34,857 bases of DNA from the IMG/VR virus record IMGVR_UViG_3300042504_002654, positions 1 to 34,857 of that record; one strand, given 5' to 3'. A program made the position numbers and the translations under genes. Position 1 is the stretch's first letter. Each line of letters begins with the position of its first letter. The notes beneath the pieces are model-generated. The model searched no databases and had not been told where the DNA came from. It was given only the letters and a program-made list of their open reading frames with translations. This document shows, piece by piece, positions 2,889 to 15,371 of this stretch. The stretch is from a virus.

Positions 2889-4517
2889 TTACATCATCAT
2901 TGATGAAGGATCAAATCCTTCTTTTTTATCAGCAGGTTTATCAACTACAATAGCATCTGTTAAAATTACAGTTCCAGCAACTGATGATGAATTTTCTATG
3001 GCATTTTTTGTTACTTTTAATGGATCAATAATACCTTGTTCTTTCATATCTACAAAAGATTTAGATTTTAAATTATACCCAATCCATTCTTTTTTCTTTG
3101 AAACCAATTGAGATACTAATTCATAACAATCTAATTTATCATATCCTGCATTTGATAGTATTTTAATAAAAGGTGCAGAACAAGCATTATATATAATTTT
3201 TTTGCCAATTAAAAAATCTGATGAAGATGATTTTGGAAATGTAATATTTTTTCTTGCATGTAGTAATGCTGCTCCTCCTCCAGGTACAATTCCATTGTCA
3301 ATAGCAGCTCTAGTAGCATGTAAAGCATCATCCATACGATCTTTCTTTTCTTTCATTTCCACTTCAGTATTTCCTCCAACAAATACAATAGCTACACCCC
3401 CAACCATTTTAGCTAATCTTTCTTGTAATTTTTCAGTTTCAAATGGAGATTTTGAATTTTCAATTTGGTTTTGTAAACTGATAATTCTTTCTTCGATATC
3501 ATTTTCAGTTCCTGCTCCATCAACTATTGTTGTTTCTTCTTTACCTATTGTTGCCATTTTACATTCTCCAAACCATTCAGTATTAAATTCTTCTAAACTC
3601 ATTCCTTTGGTAGGGGATACTACTTTTCCACCAGTAAGAACAGCTATATCTTCTAATATCAATGTTCTTCTATCTCCAAAATCAGGAGCTTTTACTGCAC
3701 ATACTTTTAGGATACCTCTCATTTTATTTACTATTAATGTAGCTAATGCTTCTCCATCAATGTCTTCAGCAATAATTAATAATGATGAATTTTCTTGAGA
3801 TGTATTTTCTAAAATTGGTAATAATTCTTTAGCCTGATTTATTTTACCATCATATAATAAAATTTTAGGTTTATCTAATACTGAAGTCATATTAGCGTTA
3901 TTAGTAACAAAATATGGAGATTTATAACCTCTATTAAATTGCATACCTTCAACTGTTTCTAGATATGTTTCTTCAGTTCTAGATTCTTCAATGGTAATAA
4001 TTCCTTCTTTACCTACTTTATTCATAGCTGAAACTATGATTTTTCCAATGTTATTATCATTATTAGCAGATATAGTAGCAATTTGTTCTATTTGTTCTTC
4101 TGAGGATATTCTTTCAGAAATATTATTTTTTAAATATGTTACTACTTCAGATACAGCTTCATCAATTCCTCTTTTTATTTCAACAGCATTAGAACCATTA
4201 TTAATATGAGTTGTGCTTAAATTAATAATTTCTTGTGCTAATACTATAGAAGTTGTTGTTCCATCACCAGCATTATCTCCAGTTTTCATTGCTGCTTGTT
4301 TTACCATTTGAGCTCCTATATCTTCAATAGGATCTTCAAGATTGATAATTTTAGCAACAGTTACTCCATCTTTTGTTGATGATACAGACTGTCCATCATT
4401 ATATACTACATTTCTACCATTTGGTCCTAATGTAGATGTAACAGCATCAGATAATGTGTTAATTCCTTTGTAAATCTTTTTTCTAGCTTCTGGTCCTAGT
4501 TCTACTATTTTGCTCAT
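2889..4517 (-). CDS. groEL: Chaperonin GroEL (phage-encoded)
   Basis: 542 residues, full length compared with E. coli GroEL (548). The ATP-site residues are in place: LGPNGRNVV, KDGVTVA (Asp50, equivalent to E. coli Asp52), AGDGTTTS (Asp85, equivalent to Asp87) and DDALHATRAA with Asp397 (equivalent to Asp398), followed by the glycine stretch GIVPGGGAALLH. The equatorial, intermediate and apical domains are all present in normal order, so it should be an active ring chaperonin. The C-terminus ends GFDPSSMMM rather than in the usual GGM repeats, so the tail that lines the cavity floor is reduced. groES is 20 bp upstream, in the normal bacterial gene order. Some giant phages carry GroEL-like proteins; having the cochaperonin next to it is less usual. 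Confidence 0.95.
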   Translation of the reverse strand: MSKIVELGPEARKKIYKGINTLSDAVTSTLGPNGRNVVYNDGQSVSSTKDGVTVAKIINLEDPIEDIGAQMVKQAAMKTGDNAGDGTTTSIVLAQEIINLSTTHINNGSNAVEIKRGIDEAVSEVVTYLKNNISERISSEEQIEQIATISANNDNNIGKIIVSAMNKVGKEGIITIEESRTEETYLETVEGMQFNRGYKSPYFVTNNANMTSVLDKPKILLYDGKINQAKELLPILENTSQENSSLLIIAEDIDGEALATLIVNKMRGILKVCAVKAPDFGDRRTLILEDIAVLTGGKVVSPTKGMSLEEFNTEWFGECKMATIGKEETTIVDGAGTENDIEERIISLQNQIENSKSPFETEKLQERLAKMVGGVAIVFVGGNTEVEMKEKKDRMDDALHATRAAIDNGIVPGGGAALLHARKNITFPKSSSSDFLIGKKIIYNACSAPFIKILSNAGYDKLDCYELVSQLVSKKKEWIGYNLKSKSFVDMKEQGIIDPLKVTKNAIENSSSVAGTVILTDAIVVDKPADKKEGFDPSSMMM

Positions 4518-4537: not shown

Positions 4538-4828
4538 TTATTCTTCAATTATTGCTAATACCATTGTTTCGGGACATCCCCAATATTCTTTACCTTCAAA
4601 TTCTAATCTTGTAGGTCCAACATGAGGTAATTTTACTATTGTTCCTTCTTGTAAACTTGTCCTAACAAAATTTCCAGTTATTGATTGTTTTCCTGGTCCT
4701 ATAGATATTATTTTTCCCATTAGTTCTTTAGAATTTCCAACATCAGGAACAATTATTGTAGAGTTAGATTTTTTGGCTTTAATAGGTTCTACAATAATAG
4801 AATCAAAAGTAGCAATTAATTTTCCCAT
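4538..4828 (-). CDS. groES: Co-chaperonin GroES
   Basis: 96 residues, the normal GroES length (97 in E. coli). It starts KLIATFDSIIVEPIKAKK, has a mobile-loop segment with hydrophobic residues (STIIVPDV, the position of the GroEL-binding IVL tripeptide), the roof and barrel segment GKIISIGPGK, then GTIVKLPHVGP and a C-terminal ETMVLAIIEE strand. It resembles true GroES more than T4 gp31, the phage cochaperonin, which lacks close sequence similarity to GroES. It should cap the GroEL encoded just downstream. The pair is probably co-transcribed. Confidence 0.9.
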   Translation of the reverse strand: MGKLIATFDSIIVEPIKAKKSNSTIIVPDVGNSKELMGKIISIGPGKQSITGNFVRTSLQEGTIVKLPHVGPTRLEFEGKEYWGCPETMVLAIIEE

Positions 4829-5932: not shown

Positions 5933-6811
5933 TTATTTAAAAAATTTATCTGCTACTGGATTTAGGGAGGGGAATTTCCATTTTAAATCACTATATAATT
6001 CTTTTAATTTGTTTAAAAGTAAAGATTCAAATATTTCTTCAATGTCAATATATATTTTAACAAATTCTTCAATTTCTTTAGGTACTTGAGCATTTGGTAA
6101 TCCTATTGTATCTATATTATATTGATTTGGTTTTAAATTAATGATAAAAATTTTATCACCTTCAATAATAGATTCATATTTTTTATCTAATTTTTTAAAT
6201 TTAAGTAAATCATTATAACGTATTGCTGCTTTTGTATTTGCAGGAGCTTTTGTAGCAAAATTACTAAATATTTTTCCTGAATTGGAAGAAATTTTATATG
6301 AATTAATTTGTTTTACTCCTGTGGGTTTACCTAATTGTTTAATATCTATTGTTTTGAGTGATTTATAAAAATCAATAATTAATTTATCTATTTCAGATTT
6401 AGGTTTGCCAAACAAAACATTTTTAATTAAATCTTCACCAAATTTTTTAAATAATTTGTTCATGTTAGACTTCATCAATTCAAGCCCTTTCATGTCTAGT
6501 TCTTCAACAGGAACACCTTCCTTATTAGTAACATACATTGCATAACGACGTTTACCTGTTGTAAGCACTCCATCACAAATTACCTCTTGTTTTAATTGGA
6601 AGTAGTGAGTGTTTGGTTTAATGTTGAATAGGTTTTTGCTAATGTTGTTTAAGTTAGCATTTGATTCTTCTTGTATTTGATTTGCTAACTTTAATATAAT
6701 CTCATTTTTATTGGTATCATTAATTTCAATACCTTGAGATTTCATATGTTCTAATACAGGACGTAATCCTATAAAAAGACTATCCGTATCACTTATAATA
6801 ATATTTTGCAT
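5933..6811 (-). CDS. 43B: Family-B DNA polymerase, C-terminal part (motif C and thumb)
   Basis: 292 residues beginning MQNIIISDTDSLFI, so the protein starts only seven residues before the catalytic DTDS motif (Asp8, Asp10). Downstream are the palm strands and Lys-rich segment TGKRRYAMYVTNKEG, then a thumb region with KAAIRYNDLLKF and PNAQVPKEIEEFVKIYIDIE, matching the T4 gp43 C-terminus in order. The last residues, NPVADKFFK, could be a clamp-binding tail. The exonuclease domain and motifs A and B are on the separate gene at 7446-9194; the two lengths add to 874 (T4 gp43 is 898), so little is lost. The halves must assemble to give an active enzyme. The start follows ATAAAAGTT, a recurring leader in this window. 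Confidence 0.88.
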   Translation of the reverse strand: MQNIIISDTDSLFIGLRPVLEHMKSQGIEINDTNKNEIILKLANQIQEESNANLNNISKNLFNIKPNTHYFQLKQEVICDGVLTTGKRRYAMYVTNKEGVPVEELDMKGLELMKSNMNKLFKKFGEDLIKNVLFGKPKSEIDKLIIDFYKSLKTIDIKQLGKPTGVKQINSYKISSNSGKIFSNFATKAPANTKAAIRYNDLLKFKKLDKKYESIIEGDKIFIINLKPNQYNIDTIGLPNAQVPKEIEEFVKIYIDIEEIFESLLLNKLKELYSDLKWKFPSLNPVADKFFK

Positions 6812-6831
6812 AACTTTTATTTAAATATATA

Positions 6832-6894
6832 TTATTTTAATACATTTTTTATTGTATCTACAAATTCTTTAAATTCGTCATCATCTATTAACAT
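6832..6894 (-). other. Possible 20-codon ORF or gene remnant in the PolB gap
   Basis: Between the inserted gene and PolB-C, ATG 6894 opens a frame reading MLIDDDEFKEFVDTIKNVLK before a stop at 6832. The same frame is open for several codons upstream without another ATG. It looks like real protein sequence (an amphipathic helix after an acidic start), but it is too short to judge. It could be a short peptide gene, the remains of a longer gene, or chance. Confidence 0.25.
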
Positions 6895-6911
6895 ATATTG
6901 ATATTTGTCAT

Positions 6912-7430
6912 TTAAATTTTTACTATTATAAATCCATCTCTATAAGTATCCAATTTAAAATTAGACATTTGATCTATTTGTTTTTTTATATATGATTTAT
7001 ATAAATTTGTCTTTTTAGTTATATCTCCAATGCCTAATTCTTTTTCACTACCTTTAATGTATAAACCATCTAGATTTTGGGTTTTGATAAAATCTTTTAT
7101 AATATCCACTACTGTTGATAAAATAGTGAGTAATGTTTTCAAATCTGTTTTATCAAATTGTACTTCAGTTCCAGATACCTCATAACCAACATTATATATT
7201 TTATTTAAATTTCTATATTTTGGAGGAAAGTAAAACTGTTTTTCTACTTGATCTATAATTTGTTCAAAATCAACAGTTACTACTTCAGTTAAATCATTTA
7301 TATATACTAAAAATTTATATCTAACCGGGGAAGTTTTAGTCCATTTGAGTGGTTGAATATTTGCTTCTCCAATTTCATTTATAAGAATTTCATTAAGAAT
7401 AGGAATGAGTAATGTTTTATATGAAGCCAT
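6912..7430 (-). CDS. Protein of unknown function inserted between the two PolB halves
   Basis: 172 residues, not recognised by function. It has no homing-endonuclease motif (no LAGLIDADG, GIY-YIG or HNH). It shares a layout with the protein at 15376-15876: an N-terminal helix, a central beta region, then VVDIIKDFIKTQNLDGL (compare VTEICVDFIKEKNPNGL), an aligned LYKSYIKKQIDQM (compare FYKVIVIKQLSKI), and a final strand GFIIVKI (compare GFMMYKK). The two therefore look like paralogues. It sits 15 bp from the end of PolB-N and about 100 bp before PolB-C, so the polymerase was split by, or together with, the arrival of this gene. Confidence 0.7.
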   Translation of the reverse strand: MASYKTLLIPILNEILINEIGEANIQPLKWTKTSPVRYKFLVYINDLTEVVTVDFEQIIDQVEKQFYFPPKYRNLNKIYNVGYEVSGTEVQFDKTDLKTLLTILSTVVDIIKDFIKTQNLDGLYIKGSEKELGIGDITKKTNLYKSYIKKQIDQMSNFKLDTYRDGFIIVKI

Positions 7431-7445
7431 TTTATTATAAATATT

Positions 7446-9194
7446 TTATAAATTGAATTTTTTTATTAATTCTTCTTTACTTAAATATAAATATTCATTG
7501 TTTATTTTATCGTTTACAAAATCTATAGTAGACATTGTTAATCTTTGTCCACTGTTAGTGATAGCAGCACTACATATCAAATGTCCATCAGTATATCTCC
7601 AACCATTAATAGCATAAGTACCATACATAGCATTTTGTAAGATTTTAAATGCATGTTGAAACAAATCATATAATTTATAATTTGTCCAATCTTCTTCTTT
7701 ACCTGCTTTTTTCTTTAAACCACGATAATGTTCTCGTTTTTCAAACCAACCTTGTAAAATTTTAGAACAAATACTTTGTTCATCTGTTTTAAACAACGCG
7801 CCTGAAGCGGATATGGTAAAATTATTTTCTTCAATAATATTGATTAAATCTTTAATTTTTATTTGGGTGGAAATTAATGTGTAATTTTTTTTATTTAATT
7901 TTTCTATAATAATATCTTCATTAGGGTCTCTTTCTTTAAGTTTATCTAATGAATGGTTTTGTTCATAAGTAACATTATGAGATACTTTAATTCGACCAAC
8001 TAATGTTTCAATACCTAAGTTAAGTGATTTAATAATACTAGGATACAGTGAGGTAAAATCTAAATCAATAACATCAAAATATAAACCAGGTATAGGTTCT
8101 AATAAATAACCACCAGCATAAGATACATTTGCATTTTTTAGGGAAGGATTATGAGTAGTAGGTTTATTTGGTGAAATAATACCTTCACGTTTAAGATACT
8201 TTAAAATAGCACCCTCATTCATCACTGTATTATAGTAAATACTTTCATATGGAATGTTACAAATATGAGATATCATTATTGTTAATTCGATGAATTTAAG
8301 TTTTTCTTCTAACTTTTCAATAATCTCAACGTCACGTAAGTTATATTCTATAAATTTATTTATATCAGTTTTAAATAATTGATTTAAATTACCTTCATAT
8401 TCTATCTTACCTAAATTAACATATTTAGTTCCTATATCACCTAATTTATATGATGATTCTTCTTTCATAATATATTTTTTATGAAGAAGCATATAATCTA
8501 AATGGTTAATACCTCCAATAGTTAATTGCATTTCACCATTATACTCTCTATAATTAATTTTTTTAATAGGAGATAAACGTAATACTTCATCCTCACCCAT
8601 TACTTTTTTAATTCTAAAATATAAGTAAGGTACGTCAAAATACTCTGAGTTGTATCCTACTAGAATAGTTGGGTCTAGTTCTTCTAATTTGTCTAAAAAT
8701 CGTTTAATTAGTTCTTTTTCGGTACCACAAGGAATAATATGTTTACCATCTTGATTATATTCTTTAATCTCTTTAATTTTATCTATAATTAAACATATTT
8801 TTTGTTTAGTAGTAACATCTATTAGAGCAATAGAAGTAAGAGGCATAGGTGCATCCTTAATATACTCAGGAGTTAAAGCACCACCCATTTCAATCTCGAT
8901 ATCAAAATAAACAATATTATGCCATTCAGGAACTACATCATCATACTTATAATATAATTCACGTAATACAACTAATTCTTTATTAATATCTTTTTCTAAT
9001 AAATTAGTGTCTTCTTTATTATATTTTTTAGTAGGTATAGCCCATCCACCAATTAAAACTGGTTGAGCATTTTCTTGCCATTCATCAACCCGTTTCCAAT
9101 AAGTAGGTTGGTATTGGAATTGAGACCAGCCTGTTTTGTCATCACGTAAATAGTAAGTATATGATTTATGATCGTAGTAAATTGACTGGTACAT
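7446..9194 (-). CDS. 43A: Family-B DNA polymerase, N-terminal part (exonuclease, motifs A and B)
   Basis: 582 residues. The 3'-5' exonuclease is intact: Exo I VYFDIEIE (Asp98, Glu100), Exo II VGYNSEYFD (Asn182, Asp187), Exo III YNLRDVEI (Tyr284, Asp288). Polymerase motif A is LDFTSLYPSII (Asp379) and motif B is KILQNAMYGTYA (Lys517 to Gly525). After motif B it runs about 55 more residues to KEELIKKFNL and stops before motif C, which is on the gene at 5933-6811. Replicative polymerase with proofreading, working with the clamp, clamp loader and SSB of this window. The start ATG overlaps the upstream stop (TAATG). Two-gene family-B polymerases are known, including in some T4-like Aeromonas phages. 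Confidence 0.93.
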   Translation of the reverse strand: MYQSIYYDHKSYTYYLRDDKTGWSQFQYQPTYWKRVDEWQENAQPVLIGGWAIPTKKYNKEDTNLLEKDINKELVVLRELYYKYDDVVPEWHNIVYFDIEIEMGGALTPEYIKDAPMPLTSIALIDVTTKQKICLIIDKIKEIKEYNQDGKHIIPCGTEKELIKRFLDKLEELDPTILVGYNSEYFDVPYLYFRIKKVMGEDEVLRLSPIKKINYREYNGEMQLTIGGINHLDYMLLHKKYIMKEESSYKLGDIGTKYVNLGKIEYEGNLNQLFKTDINKFIEYNLRDVEIIEKLEEKLKFIELTIMISHICNIPYESIYYNTVMNEGAILKYLKREGIISPNKPTTHNPSLKNANVSYAGGYLLEPIPGLYFDVIDLDFTSLYPSIIKSLNLGIETLVGRIKVSHNVTYEQNHSLDKLKERDPNEDIIIEKLNKKNYTLISTQIKIKDLINIIEENNFTISASGALFKTDEQSICSKILQGWFEKREHYRGLKKKAGKEEDWTNYKLYDLFQHAFKILQNAMYGTYAINGWRYTDGHLICSAAITNSGQRLTMSTIDFVNDKINNEYLYLSKEELIKKFNL

Positions 9195-9457: not shown

Positions 9458-9832
9458 TTACATTCCTGTCAAGGTGCCAGTTTGGACATCTTTCCAAGTT
9501 TCTTCAAAAGCTTCCCAATCTGCTCCTATATCACCTACACCATATTTTTCTACTACTTTACTCCATATTATTTTAAAATCTTTTCTAGAAACATCATTTT
9601 TATCAGCAAAATAACTATCAACCATTTTGTTATATTCATTAATATCATCTTTAGCTTGCCCTTCATCACAAGTATACCAAATCCATTCTTTGATTACTGC
9701 TATTTTATCTTTTTTAGATGTTTTTAAATTAAAATCTCCAAGTTCTCCTTTACCATTAATAAAGGCTTCATTAATAAGTCCTGCAAGTTTTTGCATACGT
9801 TGGAATTCTTCGTTTAGTGGTTGTTTTTTCAT
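9458..9832 (-). CDS. Unknown protein with N-terminal phage tag-like motif
   Basis: 124 residues. The N-terminus is MKKQPLNEEFQRMQKLAGL followed by INEAF. I recall this E-F-x-R-M-Q-x-LAG-(I/L)-(I/L)-(N/T)E stretch from the ends of many otherwise unrelated proteins in marine T4-like phages, where its role is unclear. The rest is rich in Lys, Asp and Trp (VIKEWIWYTCDEGQAKDDI, then WEAFEETWKDVQ) with no catalytic motif I recognise. It is a single gene between MazG and the AUA-start gene. It could be a virion or host-takeover protein. Confidence 0.6.
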   Translation of the reverse strand: MKKQPLNEEFQRMQKLAGLINEAFINGKGELGDFNLKTSKKDKIAVIKEWIWYTCDEGQAKDDINEYNKMVDSYFADKNDVSRKDFKIIWSKVVEKYGVGDIGADWEAFEETWKDVQTGTLTGM

Positions 9833-10461: not shown

Positions 10462-11097
10462 TTAAAATTCATTTCCATTTTTACTAATAGCGTGAATAAA
10501 TTCTTCTCTAACTAAATTATCTTTTTCCATAAACACTCCTGAAAAACTATTAGTTGTCATTACTGATTCTGGATGTTTGATACCTCTATTACCACAACAT
10601 AAATGTTTAGAAGAAATAGATACTGCTACTGATTTACATTTTAATTTTTCAAATAAAAAATCATGTATTTGTTGGGTTAACGATTCTTGCATTTGAGGAC
10701 GACGAGCAAACCAATCTACTACTCTATTTAATTTACTTAATCCTATTACATACTCCTCAGGAATATATGCTATTGATGCCCAACCATTAAAAGGTAAATT
10801 ATGGTGTGCACATAAACTATTTACTCTGATTCCAGTTTGAATAACAACACCTGAATATCCTTCATCATTTGGGAATACAGTCATAGAAGGATTTTCTGTT
10901 AAAGAACCAATTATTAAATCTTTTGACCACGCTTTAGCTACTCTCATAGGAGTATCAATTGTTTGTCTATCTGCTTTGTAATCAAATCCCATTGCTTCTA
11001 AAAATTTACCATAATGCTTTGCAGCATTTTTTATCATTTTTTCAACTTCTTTTTGATTACGGGGTAAATTTCCGTTTGCTTTTTTAATTAATTCCAT
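10462..11097 (-). CDS. folE: GTP cyclohydrolase I
   Basis: 211 residues, normal for FolE (222 in E. coli). Zinc ligands Cys96, His99 and Cys167 have exactly the E. coli spacing (110, 113, 181). They lie in SLCAHHNLPF and SSKHLCCGNRGI. Other family boxes are TPMRVAKAW, IGLSKLNRVVDWFARRPQ and the C-terminal SGVF. It converts GTP to 7,8-dihydroneopterin triphosphate, the first step to preQ0 (and to folate). With QueD, QueE and QueC in the same region its role is almost certainly preQ0 synthesis. The start overlaps the upstream stop (TAATG). Confidence 0.95.
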   Translation of the reverse strand: MELIKKANGNLPRNQKEVEKMIKNAAKHYGKFLEAMGFDYKADRQTIDTPMRVAKAWSKDLIIGSLTENPSMTVFPNDEGYSGVVIQTGIRVNSLCAHHNLPFNGWASIAYIPEEYVIGLSKLNRVVDWFARRPQMQESLTQQIHDFLFEKLKCKSVAVSISSKHLCCGNRGIKHPESVMTTNSFSGVFMEKDNLVREEFIHAISKNGNEF

Positions 11098-11315
11098 TAT
11101 ATATTAAATTTGTTTATGAATTTTTCAATTTTTTTATAATATTCCCATTCACTTTTATTAAAATGAGCTATCATACCAAGAGATTTCACACAACTTATTA
11201 TTTCATCAATTTCATTTAAATTAATTGAATTTACAACTTCAGATAGTTTTTTAATTCTTTCATTAAGAATTTTTTCTTCTTCATCATCGTAATATTTTTT
11301 TATTGAATCTCCCAT
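11097..11315 (-). CDS. Hypothetical small protein
   Basis: 72 residues, acidic and Lys-rich, predicted helical throughout (IKKYYDDEEEKILNERIKKL, then NLNEIDEIISCVKSLGMI). No known motif. It is translationally coupled to folE by a TAATG junction and starts 14 bp after the gene at 11330-11725, so it belongs to the same transcript. Function unknown. Confidence 0.55.
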   Translation of the reverse strand: MGDSIKKYYDDEEEKILNERIKKLSEVVNSINLNEIDEIISCVKSLGMIAHFNKSEWEYYKKIEKFINKFNI

Positions 11316-11329
11316 TTTTATTAAATTTA

Positions 11330-11725
11330 TTATTTATTTATATTATCTAACATATTTGCTAATCCTATTGATTCATTTTTAAAAATTTCGTCTTCAGTTT
11401 CTTTTAAAAAATTATTTAAATATTTTGAAGATATTATTATTAATTCTTTACCTAATCTAGGATTAATAGGTTCTTTTAAAAAGAATTTATGATTAGTAAA
11501 TTTTATATAATCCTCAGAAAATACTATATTATAACTTTTATCTTTGCTTTGTATATATACTTTTGTAGGAGTAGATGTTATTTGAATTCTATTTTCAGAG
11601 TTGGAAATAAGTTTAGTAATATTTTTTTTAAGAAGTCTTTCAGGATAAGTATAACGATTGTATGGTTTAAGTTTTCTTAAAAATCTTAAATATTGTAATT
11701 TTATCATTTTATTAAATTTATTCAT
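11330..11725 (-). CDS. Hypothetical basic protein
   Basis: 131 residues from ATG 11725, beginning MNKFNKMIKLQYLRFLRKL. The frame is open farther upstream to 11794, but that extension would be translated through a GC-rich hairpin (11751-11770), whereas ATG 11725 is preceded by AAAATAAAAGTT, the leader seen before other starts here; I therefore choose 11725. The N-terminal 45 residues are strongly basic (RKLKPYNRYTYPERLLKK), suggesting nucleic-acid contact. The rest is beta-rich and then helical (LGKELIIISSKYLNNFLKE). Not recognised. Confidence 0.6.
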   Translation of the reverse strand: MNKFNKMIKLQYLRFLRKLKPYNRYTYPERLLKKNITKLISNSENRIQITSTPTKVYIQSKDKSYNIVFSEDYIKFTNHKFFLKEPINPRLGKELIIISSKYLNNFLKETEDEIFKNESIGLANMLDNINK

Positions 11726-11750
11726 AACTTTTATTTTTTTTTTAAAATCC

Positions 11751-11770
11751 CCACCCTTTAAAAAGGGTGG
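11751..11770 (-). terminator. Hairpin CCACCCTT/AAGGGTGG, probable terminator
   Basis: A perfect inverted repeat CCACCCTT-taaa-AAGGGTGG stands out in AT-rich surroundings, 24 bp after the stop of the HTH-like gene. On the minus strand it is followed by GGATTTTAAAA, so only a short U-run is present and termination may be partial. It could equally protect the 3' end of the upstream transcript or regulate translation of the gene at 11725. Confidence 0.55.
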
Positions 11771-11794
11771 AGATAAATAGCCTGTTAACTTCAA

Positions 11795-12049
11795 TTATTT
11801 AGATAATTGAGAGTTTTTCATACGTCTATATGACAATCTATAGGCTTTGTTGAGAATTTGTTTATTATTTCTCCGTCCACTCAACACATTGCAAATGTGT
11901 GATAAAGAATAGTCATATTCGGTTTTTACATCAAAAGAGAATTTATTTTTCTTAACATAAACTGTTTTGAATTTTTCTCTAATTCTTGTAGCATCTCCTC
12001 TACGACTGCGAGCATTGTAAAATGCTAATTTAGCTGTTGAATTTAACAT
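11795..12049 (-). CDS. Small basic HTH-like DNA-binding protein
   Basis: 84 residues, very basic. The middle reads TEYDYSLSHICNVLSGRRNN, then KQILNKAYRLSYRRMKN. YSLSHICNVLSGRR has the spacing of a Cro/XRE-type recognition helix (S-x-S-x-(I/V)-x-N-V-L-x-G-R-R), and the arginine-rich end is suited to DNA contact. It is preceded by a copy of the conserved promoter-like element (12077-12113) and followed by a hairpin (11751-11770), so it may be a separately controlled regulator unit inside the preQ0 region. The HTH call is from pattern alone. Confidence 0.6.
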   Translation of the reverse strand: MLNSTAKLAFYNARSRRGDATRIREKFKTVYVKKNKFSFDVKTEYDYSLSHICNVLSGRRNNKQILNKAYRLSYRRMKNSQLSK

Positions 12050-12076
12050 AAATTATTTGTTTTTTAATTAATAATG

Positions 12077-12113
12077 CTTAAATATAATAAATTTTTTATA
12101 AAAAACCAAATTA
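12077..12113 (-). promoter_or_regulatory. Conserved AT-rich element, copy 1 (probable phage promoter)
   Basis: On the minus strand it begins TAATTTGGTTTTTTA and ends TTTATTATATTTAAG, nearly identical to the copy at 5896-5932. It fills the gap between queE and the HTH-like gene and ends 27 bp before that ATG. Its position after one gene and before the next, together with its repeated occurrence, makes a promoter the best explanation. Confidence 0.55.
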
Positions 12114-12128
12114 AAATGTAATTTTTTA

Positions 12129-13055
12129 TTAAACATTTAAAGTTTTATTCCATGCAGCAATATGTAAACGTGTTAATCCAATAAAACGATATTTTTTAGC
12201 CATTTCAAGAACAAATCTAGTACGTTCTTCAAAATCAGCAGCATCATCTAATCCTGGCATGCAACAAACATTTTGTAATGGGATATCAAATGGCTCAATG
12301 AAGTCACGGAATATTTCCTTAACATCATCCTCAGTTGAAATAACGAACTTAAATTGATAGTTATCGTGCCCCATAATACGTTTGATGGCTGCAGGAACAA
12401 TACGTTGTTTTTCAGTCATACCTGAGTTGGATAGTTTTGGTGAGCAGTTAATTTGATAAAGTCTATAAAATAAATTATCCTCAATTACTATTGTACCGTT
12501 GGTTTCTATTTCATCAAACGTATTTAAACTTATTAATTCTACTTTCTTATCTTCACCTAAACCATTCCAGTAATATTTTACAGTTGATGGATTATTTATA
12601 TCCTTACTAGTAATAACAGGTGAACCATTATCATAATCTAATAAATACTTATGGAAGTTAACAATTGCCTCTTGATGTCCTTTAATTGTAGGTTCTCCTC
12701 CTGTCCAAATGATGTGAATAGTACCGTTTTTAATATCTTCATAGATACCTTGCTCTTTCCATTGGTCAATTAGATATTGAAAATCTTTATCTTCACCTCT
12801 CCATAACCATTGACTTGTGCTGTCGCAAGTCCAAGTTGCCTTACCTTCCTTATGTAAGTCGCCTTCAAATATTTCACCGTCTTCTAGCGACTGTTCTTTA
12901 GCTAACATGTTAGCGAATGCTCTAGACATACCGCAAGTTAGGTTACAGATACCTAAACGAACGAAATAAGAGGGCACTCCGCTGCTTTTTCCTTCTCCTT
13001 GCACTGAAAAAAAGTCACTTGAGATTAATAATTTGTTTGGATCTATTTTTGACAT
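12129..13055 (-). CDS. queE: 7-carboxy-7-deazaguanine synthase QueE (radical SAM), with insertion in the cluster motif
   Basis: 308 residues, longer than E. coli QueE (223). It begins with the family substrate box FFSVQGEGKSSGVPSYFVRL, then CNLTC (Cys37, Cys41). The third cluster cysteine comes only after 35 residues, in ATWTCDST (Cys77), whereas radical SAM enzymes normally have CX3CX2C; one known QueE has a different wide spacing (CX14CX2C). The glycine motif WTGGEPTIKG and the ETNGT segment are normal. QueE converts 6-carboxytetrahydropterin to CDG, the third step to preQ0. The other pathway genes lie on both sides. I take the insertion as real because both flanks are well conserved. Confidence 0.88.
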   Translation of the reverse strand: MSKIDPNKLLISSDFFSVQGEGKSSGVPSYFVRLGICNLTCGMSRAFANMLAKEQSLEDGEIFEGDLHKEGKATWTCDSTSQWLWRGEDKDFQYLIDQWKEQGIYEDIKNGTIHIIWTGGEPTIKGHQEAIVNFHKYLLDYDNGSPVITSKDINNPSTVKYYWNGLGEDKKVELISLNTFDEIETNGTIVIEDNLFYRLYQINCSPKLSNSGMTEKQRIVPAAIKRIMGHDNYQFKFVISTEDDVKEIFRDFIEPFDIPLQNVCCMPGLDDAADFEERTRFVLEMAKKYRFIGLTRLHIAAWNKTLNV

Positions 13056-13068
13056 ATATTTTTAATTT

Positions 13069-13467
13069 TTAATTTAATAAATACCTATTTTTTACTCTAT
13101 CTGAAATTGGAATTGGGCTACCATCTTCATCAACTCTAACAAATTTTATGTCTGTTGCTAATATAATTGATTGTTCACCATTATACACATTATGTCTTCG
13201 AGCTTCTACATGCAATGTAAGTGATGTTTTTCCAAAACAACCAATTTTTGCATATATTTTAATTAAATGACTTGGTCCTGCTGGTTTTTTAAATATGCAT
13301 TTTTCCATTGATACTGTAACCATTCTTGGTGTATCACATACTTCCATAGCATACGCTACAGCATCACCATCTAGCCAATATAGAAGTTTTCCTCCAAATA
13401 ATGTATTATTAAACCCTAAATCAGAATGTTTGACCGGGTGTACTCCAATAATTTGAAAGTTTGTCAT
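13069..13467 (-). CDS. Acyl-CoA thioesterase-like hotdog protein
   Basis: 132 residues, matching the YciA/BACH-type acyl-CoA hydrolases in length and motif order: NNTLFGGKLLYWLDGDA (the hotdog helix with its Asn and Asp active-site positions), VTVSMEKCIFKKPAGP, IKIYAKIGCFGKTSLTLHVE. Cellular members cleave acyl-CoA thioesters. Its place inside a preQ0 gene cluster is odd; it may act on a thioester of another metabolite, use its hotdog fold to bind a nucleotide-like ligand, or simply affect host lipid metabolism. It is coupled to the upstream gene (ATGA-type overlap) and lies 13 bp before queE. Confidence 0.82.
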   Translation of the reverse strand: MTNFQIIGVHPVKHSDLGFNNTLFGGKLLYWLDGDAVAYAMEVCDTPRMVTVSMEKCIFKKPAGPSHLIKIYAKIGCFGKTSLTLHVEARRHNVYNGEQSIILATDIKFVRVDEDGSPIPISDRVKNRYLLN

Positions 13468-13679
13468 AAATTATAATTATTGAACTTACCGTTAAAATAA
13501 TCTTTTAAAAAAAATACAGGATACATCATTATTTTTCCGGTATATTTTTTATTTTTTACTTGTTTTGTTTTACAACCAACTTTCAATAAAGATGCCACAC
13601 TTGCAACTTGTTTACCTAATTCTGGACCTGCAGCATGTCCTAAATAATCGTATAGAGATTTCATTTCATTATTCTCCAT
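13464..13679 (-). CDS. Conserved small phage protein
   Basis: About 71 residues from ATG 13679 (MENNEMKSLYDYLGHAAG). Starts at 13706 and at 13664 are also in frame. I prefer 13679 because it follows GCAAGTT, like other starts here; 13664 is also plausible, with a GGAG nine bases upstream. The core SLYDYLGHAAGPELGKQVAS and the end KKYTGKIMMYPVFFLKDYF resemble a short phage family I recall with the form YLG-x-x-AGPELGK, NPKYTGKV and YP-x-x-(F/Y)L. It overlaps the end of queD. Function unknown. Confidence 0.6.
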   Translation of the reverse strand: MENNEMKSLYDYLGHAAGPELGKQVASVASLLKVGCKTKQVKNKKYTGKIMMYPVFFLKDYFNGKFNNYNL

Positions 13680-14130
13680 AACTTGCACTGTTTCTTTCAT
13701 GTTCATATACTTCTATTTTAGTTACTCTTACACGGTTATCAGTTTCTAATTCTAGAAAACCATTAATAATATCATACAAATATTGAGCAAAACGCTCACA
13801 TCCTACAGCATCCATAATTCTTAACTGTATTATACCATCTTTATCCATTTGTTTAAATTGCTCTAAATGGGGATCATCTTGTGCTACAATTGTAGTATGA
13901 TCTAGTAAATATGCAAAGTAGTCTTTAGGAGACATACCATTCATTTTAGTCTTTGCTCTTTTCATGCCACCAAAATCAAATACCCAGTTACGATGATCTA
14001 GATCACCTTCAAACCATACTCTAAATGATATAGCATATCCATGTAAAAATCTACAATGAGTACCATCTGCTTTCCATTGTCTGAAGCAAGCTGAGTATCC
14101 GTCAAATAATTTTGTTGATTGAAATTTCAT
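13669..14130 (-). CDS. queD: 6-carboxytetrahydropterin synthase QueD, divergent phage type
   Basis: 153 residues. Recognisable PTPS/QueD elements are THCRFLHGYAISF (catalytic Cys26 and zinc ligand His30), WVFDFGGMKRAK, the LLDHTTI segment with the catalytic Asp-His pair, and YEHERNSASYGE with the substrate-binding Glu. Two usual zinc ligands differ: the HGH pair is HGY (Tyr32), and the earlier A-A-H is SACF. A neighbouring His25 might substitute. The step is dihydroneopterin triphosphate to 6-carboxytetrahydropterin. I recall other T4-like phage QueD proteins with the same FRQW and HGY pattern, so this is probably a functioning phage subtype and not a decaying gene. Confidence 0.85.
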   Translation of the reverse strand: MKFQSTKLFDGYSACFRQWKADGTHCRFLHGYAISFRVWFEGDLDHRNWVFDFGGMKRAKTKMNGMSPKDYFAYLLDHTTIVAQDDPHLEQFKQMDKDGIIQLRIMDAVGCERFAQYLYDIINGFLELETDNRVRVTKIEVYEHERNSASYGE

Positions 14131-14136
14131 AACTAT

Positions 14137-14448
14137 TTATTTTTTATTATTTAAAATATTATCTTTTTGTTTTTTTAATTCAGCTGCTTTTTCATAATTT
14201 TCATTTTTAACAGCTAATTTAATTTCTTTTTCAATTTTTAAAAGTTTTTGTCTTATTTCATCAATAATAGGTAATGATTCAGAAGATGTAATTTTTGTTT
14301 TACCATCAAATGAAATAAATGTTCTAATAATAGTTTTAAACCCTTCTTTTTCTTCTATAGTTTCAGTTACTGTACCTTCTTTTTTTAAGGCTTCCCAATC
14401 ATAATCTTCACGATTAAAATTCCAAGATGTGTTCCAATTCCAAATCAT
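14137..14448 (-). CDS. Protein with C-terminal UVR (UvrB/UvrC) motif
   Basis: 103 residues. The N-terminal half has an unusual Trp/Asn-rich start (MIWNWNTSWNFNREDYDWEA). The C-terminal third, IEKEIKLAVKNENYEKAAEL followed by KKQKDNI, matches the UVR motif that lets UvrB and UvrC bind each other (L-x-x-A-(I/V)-x-x-E-(D/N)-(F/Y)-E-x-A-A-x-L-(R/K)-(D/K)). No nuclease or helicase part is attached. It could bind host UvrB/UvrC, or the motif may be used for other protein contacts. It lies between queD and queC with gaps of 5-6 bp. Confidence 0.7.
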   Translation of the reverse strand: MIWNWNTSWNFNREDYDWEALKKEGTVTETIEEKEGFKTIIRTFISFDGKTKITSSESLPIIDEIRQKLLKIEKEIKLAVKNENYEKAAELKKQKDNILNNKK

Positions 14449-14453
14449 AGTTT

Positions 14454-15371
14454 TTAATTTTTATGGATTAATAATACTTGTTCTACATGTTTTTTAGCTA
14501 CTTCCCAACTTACAGGACCTGTTTCATCTGCATATTCTACAGGATCTGGTCTTCCTAATTTAAGAAATGCTTCTATTCGTTCTACGGATGATGCTGATTT
14601 ATAATCAGAATACCATTTATACTGACAATTTGTTGGGTGGGGTTCAGAAGCTATATAATGATTAGTTGCATTAGATGCTATTTTAATTGGTTTGTAACTT
14701 GTATTTGTTCGTTTATAAACTTCATCAAAATCTAAACCTAATTGTTTACAACATTTTAACCCGTCTTCTAAAATACCAAATTTATCAGTATGAAGATATG
14801 GTGTATAAACATTTACTTTTTCAGAACCCCAATTTCCTTGTTTAAATGCTTCAAAATCAGCATCTCTAAATTCTTGTCTACAATCAGGATAAATAGAATG
14901 ATCACCAGCATGAATCCCCATAGCAATAGAACATTCAGAATTATTTTTCTCTGCTATGGATAAAGCAACTGCTTGTATAATACTTGAAAATATTTTGTTT
15001 CTATTAGGAACTACTGTATCCTTCATATTTTCATCTGCATAGTGCCCTTCAGGTACTTCTGAACCACCTTCAACTAATGATGAATTCAATAATTGAGATA
15101 AACCATCTAATTTAATAATTTGATGTTTAATAGGGTAATAATTAAAAAATAAAGATAATTGATTTGGAAATTCACCTTCTATTCCCTCACGACATTTATT
15201 TAAATATTTTACTAATTCAGTTGCTCGTTCTAGTTCAACTTTATGTTTTTGTCCATAATCAAAACTTAAACAAGTTACTTCATACCCATTAGCTAACAGA
15301 TGAAGTAGCAAAGTGCTTGAATCCATACCTCCACTTAAAGAGAGTACAGCGTGTTTTTGTTTTTGTTTCAT
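14454..15371 (-). CDS. queC: 7-cyano-7-deazaguanine (preQ0) synthase QueC, divergent
   Basis: 305 residues against 231 in E. coli. The PP-loop is LSLSGGMDSSTLL; then come LSFDYGQKH, TVVPNRNKIF, MGIHAGDHSIYPDCRQEF and TPYLHTDKFGILEDG, all in QueC order. It makes preQ0 from CDG, ammonia and ATP. The zinc site normally formed by four cysteines near the C-terminus (S-C-Y-x-n-C-x-x-C-x-x-C) is mostly gone: the region reads TNTSYKPI, then PTNCQYKWYSDYKSASS, keeping one Cys. There is no glutamine-amidotransferase fusion as in the Gat-QueC of phages making the amido base. Extra sequence is present after the first helices and between the remains of the zinc site. Confidence 0.88.
   Translation of the reverse strand: MKQKQKHAVLSLSGGMDSSTLLLHLLANGYEVTCLSFDYGQKHKVELERATELVKYLNKCREGIEGEFPNQLSLFFNYYPIKHQIIKLDGLSQLLNSSLVEGGSEVPEGHYADENMKDTVVPNRNKIFSSIIQAVALSIAEKNNSECSIAMGIHAGDHSIYPDCRQEFRDADFEAFKQGNWGSEKVNVYTPYLHTDKFGILEDGLKCCKQLGLDFDEVYKRTNTSYKPIKIASNATNHYIASEPHPTNCQYKWYSDYKSASSVERIEAFLKLGRPDPVEYADETGPVSWEVAKKHVEQVLLIHKN

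Follow-up and report, generated by a model that had tools for sequence, protein, structure and literature searches.

The virus studied herein, a virus of bacteria, was found to encode its T4-like (gp43-like) family-B DNA polymerase as two separate polypeptides of 582 and 292 amino acids (874 in sum), and the same cut version of the gene seems to have moved among related viruses on repeated occasions. On the basis of sequence comparisons, we consider it likely that the two chains constitute a two-subunit enzyme and that the split allele was spread by homing-type gene conversion, the endonuclease later having often been replaced; that is, the split was probably first spread by a selfish DNA-cutting gene which has since been lost from many copies. 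The whole stretch of DNA analyzed (hereafter, the window) is a linear IMG/VR record of 34,857 bp, in which end repeats were looked for and none were found, and it is probably a fragment. The features of the polymerase locus within the window are as follows.

7446-9194, minus strand: N half of a gp43-like family-B DNA polymerase with the exonuclease domain and motifs A and B, 582 aa (profile matches)
7494-7556, minus strand: upstream part of the tract shared by split alleles, approximately residues 547-567, bound approximate (identity profiles)
7446-7493, minus strand: 15-codon tail YLYLSKEELIKKFNL plus stop, found in split alleles only, predicted short helix (variable sites 7/4/12 by codon position in ten split alleles)
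6812-7445, minus strand: interval of 634 bp between the halves, from the N-half stop codon to the C-half ATG, a variable-cargo site in split alleles
6912-7430, minus strand: 172-aa ORF between the halves (weak similarity to DUF6934/phrog_6387)
6810-6822, minus strand: AAATAAAAGTT-AT(G), start-codon-linked motif of the phage clade, directly 5' of the C-half ATG (clade counts)
5933-6811, minus strand: C half of the polymerase with motif C (DTDS), the remaining palm and the thumb, 292 aa (profile matches)
6623-6802, minus strand: downstream part of the shared tract, approximately C-half residues 4-63, bound approximate, carrying a 3-codon insertion relative to continuous alleles (identity profiles)

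The N half matched PF00136 (6e-26), PF03104 (3e-16) and phrog_262 (1e-95), and the C half matched phrog_1918 (5e-42) and phrog_262 (9e-41), while a profile of the continuous relatives matched T4-like gp43 structures at E 5e-72. The Pfam and PHROG matches of both halves were far beyond chance, and the identity of the protein as a family-B polymerase is without doubt. Motif A (DFTSLYPS) and motif B (KILQNAMYG) were located at residues 379-386 and 517-525 of the N half, respectively, and motif C (DTDS) at residues 8-11 of the C half, which starts with MQNIIIS, placing the break after motif B and seven residues ahead of motif C. The exonuclease domain and motifs A, B and C with the catalytic carboxylates of a T4 gp43-like enzyme were thus all found. 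These coordinates, motifs and profile matches bore out the first-pass annotation, which had described a family-B polymerase in two genes cut just before motif C, with exonuclease motifs and motifs A and B in the N-terminal gene, a C-terminal gene starting seven residues before DTDS, a combined length of 874 residues, and 634 bp with another gene (the 172-aa ORF) between the halves.

The clade was collected from IMG/VR by scans with the C half, the N half and an alignment of the C half, resulting in a tree set of 58 rows, 47 continuous and 11 split (window included); the codon analyses were performed on 56 rows, with the distant continuous L073 and L075 left out. All 11 split rows were cut at exactly the same place, where the continuous relatives have a loop of about six residues within one frame. 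Since the contigs L003, L005 and L009 showed the same junction before being cut off at the contig end, the total amounted to 14 split contigs, the window and 13 others, from many different metagenomes. The N half of the window was 79-87% identical to those of the other split alleles. An additional IMG/VR search, started from conserved motifs of the C half that lie beyond the tract, gave no more split members, and thus the clade sample in IMG/VR looks near exhausted. The first-pass annotation had held that related genomes with one continuous frame would speak against the split; most relatives do literally have such a frame, but because 13 other contigs are split too, the split is polymorphic and not an error. 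The catalytic motifs were intact in all split alleles, and no other PF00136 match was detected in split contigs of 155 kb (L002), 128 kb and 99 kb, which may be incomplete; the two halves are thus the only family-B polymerase seen in those larger contigs.

Pairwise dN/dS among split alleles ranged from 0.06 to 0.13 for the N halves and from 0.07 to 0.13 for the C halves, resembling that of continuous-allele pairs. In the loop's stead, every split allele of the clade carries a tail of 15-19 residues, most often YLxLsKEELIxKFNL, and in ten alleles the variable sites in its 15 codons numbered 7 at first, 4 at second and 12 at third positions, indicating that the tail is selected as protein. These substitution patterns indicated that both halves and the 15-residue tail are under purifying selection. 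The earlier proposal of a two-subunit enzyme rather than a pseudogene is supported by the intact motifs, the dN/dS near 0.1, the kept tail and the lack of another PF00136 match in the L002 contig. As for the start signals, 56 of the 80 copies of ATAAAAGTT in the clade had an ATG immediately behind them (an approximate count, as the loci overlap). The C half begins with this arrangement in the window, L002, L004, L006 and L007, and in L008, L010 and L012 the nuclease gene ends in overlap with the C-half ATG.

In a fold model of the continuous relative L038 (mean pLDDT 74, pTM 0.52), a long helix extends to residue 568, followed by a loop (569-574) and the motif-C strand from residue 575. The earlier description of the break as lying in a core structural region is right as to the core, but the cut is mild: in the predicted fold it hits a short loop and spares the helices and strands. 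When the N half was modelled alone, the palm strand with motif A, present in the continuous model, was absent, and the region showed a pLDDT of about 25-40; with models of moderate confidence, this is only a hint that the N half may need the C half.

The 172-aa ORF, which fills 519 of the 634 bp between the halves, was not recognisable as a homing endonuclease. Its relatives were found at two viral loci (27% identity), and neither a cultured-phage match nor a defence family was found for it. After its stop codon, another frame within window 6812-6911 (minus strand) reads NSKNLNDKYQYMLIDDDEFKEFVDTIKNVLK, which is protein-like in look and may be a frameshifted end of the ORF or a remnant. No tandem repeats were found at the locus. 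Non-nuclease genes also occupy the gap in L002, L003/L004, L005/L006 and L007, and in L069 (882-4999) the halves are separated by a 4.2-kb block that includes a gene for a collagen-like tail fibre of 1037 aa; at least six distinct split alleles (window, L002, L004, L006, L007 and L069) are free of nuclease. A GIY-YIG homing-type gene sits in the gap of L008, L010 and L009 (partial) and of L012, where the copy is interrupted by a stop, and the gaps of L011 and L013 hold an HNH/endonuclease-VII-like gene and an HNH/homing-type gene (E 9e-64), respectively. GIY-YIG-like genes were present at the same place in the distant L076 and L078, that of L076 being recognized by sequence pattern without a profile match, and the 168-bp gap of the distant, likewise split L212 retains of such a gene no more than roughly its final 28 codons. 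A homing endonuclease gene inside the split was thus found in L008, L010, L011, L013 and L078, and not in the window.

GIY-YIG-like genes were also observed 35 bp upstream of the N half in L002 (L002:1806-2528) and directly upstream of the polymerase N terminus in the continuous L081 (upstream of 3297), suggesting that the polymerase gene has more than one site at which such genes attack or flank it. Elsewhere on the minus strand of the window, genes for GroEL-like (2889-4517) and GroES-like (4538-4828) chaperonins and an RFC-like clamp-loader ATPase (1952-2887) lie downstream of the polymerase, and a 7-deazaguanine pathway cluster comprising GTP cyclohydrolase, QueE-like, QueD/PTPS and QueC genes (10462-15371) suggests modification of the phage DNA or of tRNA. 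N-terminal leaders such as MKKQ-EEFxRMQKLAGLIxEA or MKKSxLRQIIKEEIxKVLNEN recur in many small proteins of the clade that are otherwise unrelated, several of them encoded in the polymerase gap (window 9458-9832, minus strand; L002:4335; L004:4275; L007:875; L005:981; and others). As these leaders resemble the capsid-targeting leaders of T4 internal head proteins, the leader-bearing genes may encode proteins packed into the head.

The history of the split was traced by DNA trees of separate parts of the gene. For codons 1-480 (distal N), the split label took 10 changes for 10 split rows, and a single split clade was rejected with an AU p of 7e-36, which for a quick tree is to be read as "strongly rejected"; for codons 651-855 (distal C), it took 11 changes for 11 split rows. 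On the tree of codons 561-606 (junction tract), the label took a single change, as low a value being reached in none of 500 shuffles. The whole-gene tree, with 12 scattered changes, became readable once cut into distal N, tract and distal C. The identity profiles were in good agreement with such a mosaic: compared with their nearest continuous relatives, the split alleles were mostly 80-100% identical outside and mostly 24-80% identical inside approximately codons 546-626, with nucleotide profiles of L010 and L012 giving 93-100% just outside and 24-73% inside columns 546-626. Between L010 and L079, dN was 0.004 for codons 1-480 and 0.57 for codons 567-606.

Furthermore, random-label tests revealed excess similarity among split alleles only in the tract (0 of 200 in each of four blocks) and none outside. 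At codons for the same residue, third positions agreed more among split alleles, again only in the tract (0 of 1000 for codons 566-606 and 8 of 1000 for 546-626), and because the sharing thus extends to synonymous third positions, convergent adaptation is unlikely. All these comparisons of aligned genes indicated that a sharply bounded tract of about 80 codons of common descent around the break has been passed between lineages by horizontal exchange, the flanks being co-converted with the split. Split and continuous alleles occurred in the same metagenomes in at least four cases (e.g., 3300007734, 3300032331 and 3300017917), which gives opportunity for such exchange. The shared tracts are old and partly saturated, which limits the reading of gain versus loss of the split in single events, and L013 may represent a separate event, since it shares the tail but shares the tract weakly.

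We thus propose that the phage replicates with a heterodimeric family-B polymerase, in which two separately translated chains would join non-covalently and meet in the palm, where motif A of the N chain and motif C of the C chain would together form the active site. The break would have originated by entry of a free-standing homing endonuclease gene into the loop that links the helix on the motif-B side to the motif-C strand; afterwards the halves would have adapted through the tail on the N chain and the altered stretch following motif C. Co-occurring related phages would repeatedly have acquired the split allele, about 80 codons plus the insert, from one another, with gene conversion putting it in place of the continuous one; the mosaic trees demonstrate the horizontal movement, and we infer that nuclease cleavage of continuous alleles, i.e., homing, drove it. 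At a presumably later stage, the endonuclease would have been lost and unrelated small genes would have taken its place in many copies, including the window. Each of these steps is made plausible by precedents compiled in reviews (PMC2988022; PMC2993671). It is also conceivable, although we hold this only tentatively, that the split allele is mobile in its own right, nuclease-free cassettes spreading with homing endonucleases acting in trans or by recombination alone, and the gap serving as an exchange site for arbitrary small genes and even the 4.2-kb tail-fibre block.

Because nuclease-free alleles are scattered as well, the main rival to homing-type conversion is that the same two-subunit enzyme and spreading tract were moved by ordinary homologous recombination under selection, with the nucleases as later passengers; the advantage could be, for example, immunity of the split allele to homing nucleases or a useful cargo. 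The scatter of at least six distinct nuclease-free split alleles and the co-occurrence of split and continuous alleles in samples would agree with it, and the insert in the window, which is not a homing endonuclease, speaks against homing-type conversion. We nevertheless regard it as unlikely, considering that the several nuclease types, the decayed copy in L012 and the remnant in L212, all at one site, fit homing followed by decay, and that the exchanged tract is small and has the insert at its centre.

The clustering of amino-acid changes at the likely interface would be accounted for if many lineages had been split independently and had converged around the break, and L076/L078, L212 and perhaps L013 may indeed be separate events; the common 3-codon insertion and tail, the single clade on the tract DNA tree and the excess sharing at synonymous sites, however, render this explanation for the clade highly improbable. 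Still less credit is given to splicing of the interval as a group I/II intron or to joining of the proteins by a split intein. Both have precedents, as gene 43B of phage 25 has a group I intron and phage MIJ3 has a split intein in its PolB (PMC6892783), but here the 172-aa ORF occupies most of the interval, and the tail, which a stop codon closes, shows conservation at the protein level. Rfam scans at the gathering threshold detected no intron, and those of six nuclease-bearing loci at E up to 1 gave no match, a setting at which a divergent intron core may escape; CRISPR-DR44, hit by a window segment at E 0.96, was below its gathering score and was taken as chance. The 15-residue tail and the seven residues before DTDS leave no room for intein blocks, and the Pfam scan was without an intein domain. 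Finally, a pseudogene or assembly artefact, to which the continuity of most relatives might point, can on the sequence evidence be dismissed in view of the 14 contigs, the intact frames, the dN/dS near 0.1 and the lack of another family-B polymerase in the large contigs.

Splitting of phage genes, gp43 among them, by homing endonucleases is already known. What is new is where this gene is broken, that the split persists once the nuclease is gone, that unrelated genes are exchanged within the gap, and that the split, by population-level evidence, moves with a tract of about 80 codons; the literature searched, outside of which most subscription journals lay, contained no description of such a case. 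The findings add a further natural break point to family-B polymerases, immediately 5' of the catalytic motif C and tolerated in a replicative enzyme. In addition, the coexistence of split and continuous alleles in a natural population, with short tracts swapped between them, makes testable both the assembly of a polymerase palm from two chains and the movement of DNA by homing enzymes without their own gene, for which, according to a review of T4-related phages, no experimental evidence is available (PMC2993671).

Whether the break matches that of the Aeromonas phages or of archaea had been left open in the first-pass annotation; judging from the motif positions, it matches neither, and the break between motifs B and C represents a third position beside those two. 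Like the window, Aeromonas phages 25 and 44RR encode a T4-like gp43 in two genes, gp43A and gp43B, and these split subunits are reported to co-purify with polymerase activity (PMC2988022). The break of phage 25, however, separates motifs A and B, since gp43A (498 aa) ends before motif B (NRKILINSLYG) of gp43B; its two halves flank a GIY-YIG gene, and 43B carries an annotated group I intron. A tract moving among lineages was seen in the window's clade. The split PolB3 of Methanobacteriales, whose origin has been attributed to intein loss, is likewise a family-B polymerase in two genes with a break near motif C (PMC4104785). In the Methanobacteriales genomes, which were located through an mcrA peptide scan, motif C (YADTDGFYATY) is still part of the N half, which stops directly beyond it, whereas motif C opens the C half in the window.

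The PolB of jumbo phage MIJ3 shares with the window's clade the arrangement of two ORFs with an endonuclease between them, but it possesses the intein blocks A, B, F and G (PMC6892783), for which the window halves have no room. Parallels in the mode of splitting are the Aeh1 nrdA (mobE) and T4 gene 60 (mobA), in which insertion of a homing endonuclease gene splits an essential gene in a critical region, so that two chains result (PMC2988022). A continuous allele without the insert in relatives, as for Aeh1 nrdA, was found in 47 of the 58 rows; those are other genes, and the window's clade keeps many nuclease-free derivatives with other cargo. The HEG-islands of ICP1-like phages similarly place interchangeable, unstable nucleases beside essential genes at exchange boundaries (PMC10448857), whereas in the window's clade the gene itself is cut by one insertion, and exchange involves a tract of about 80 codons.
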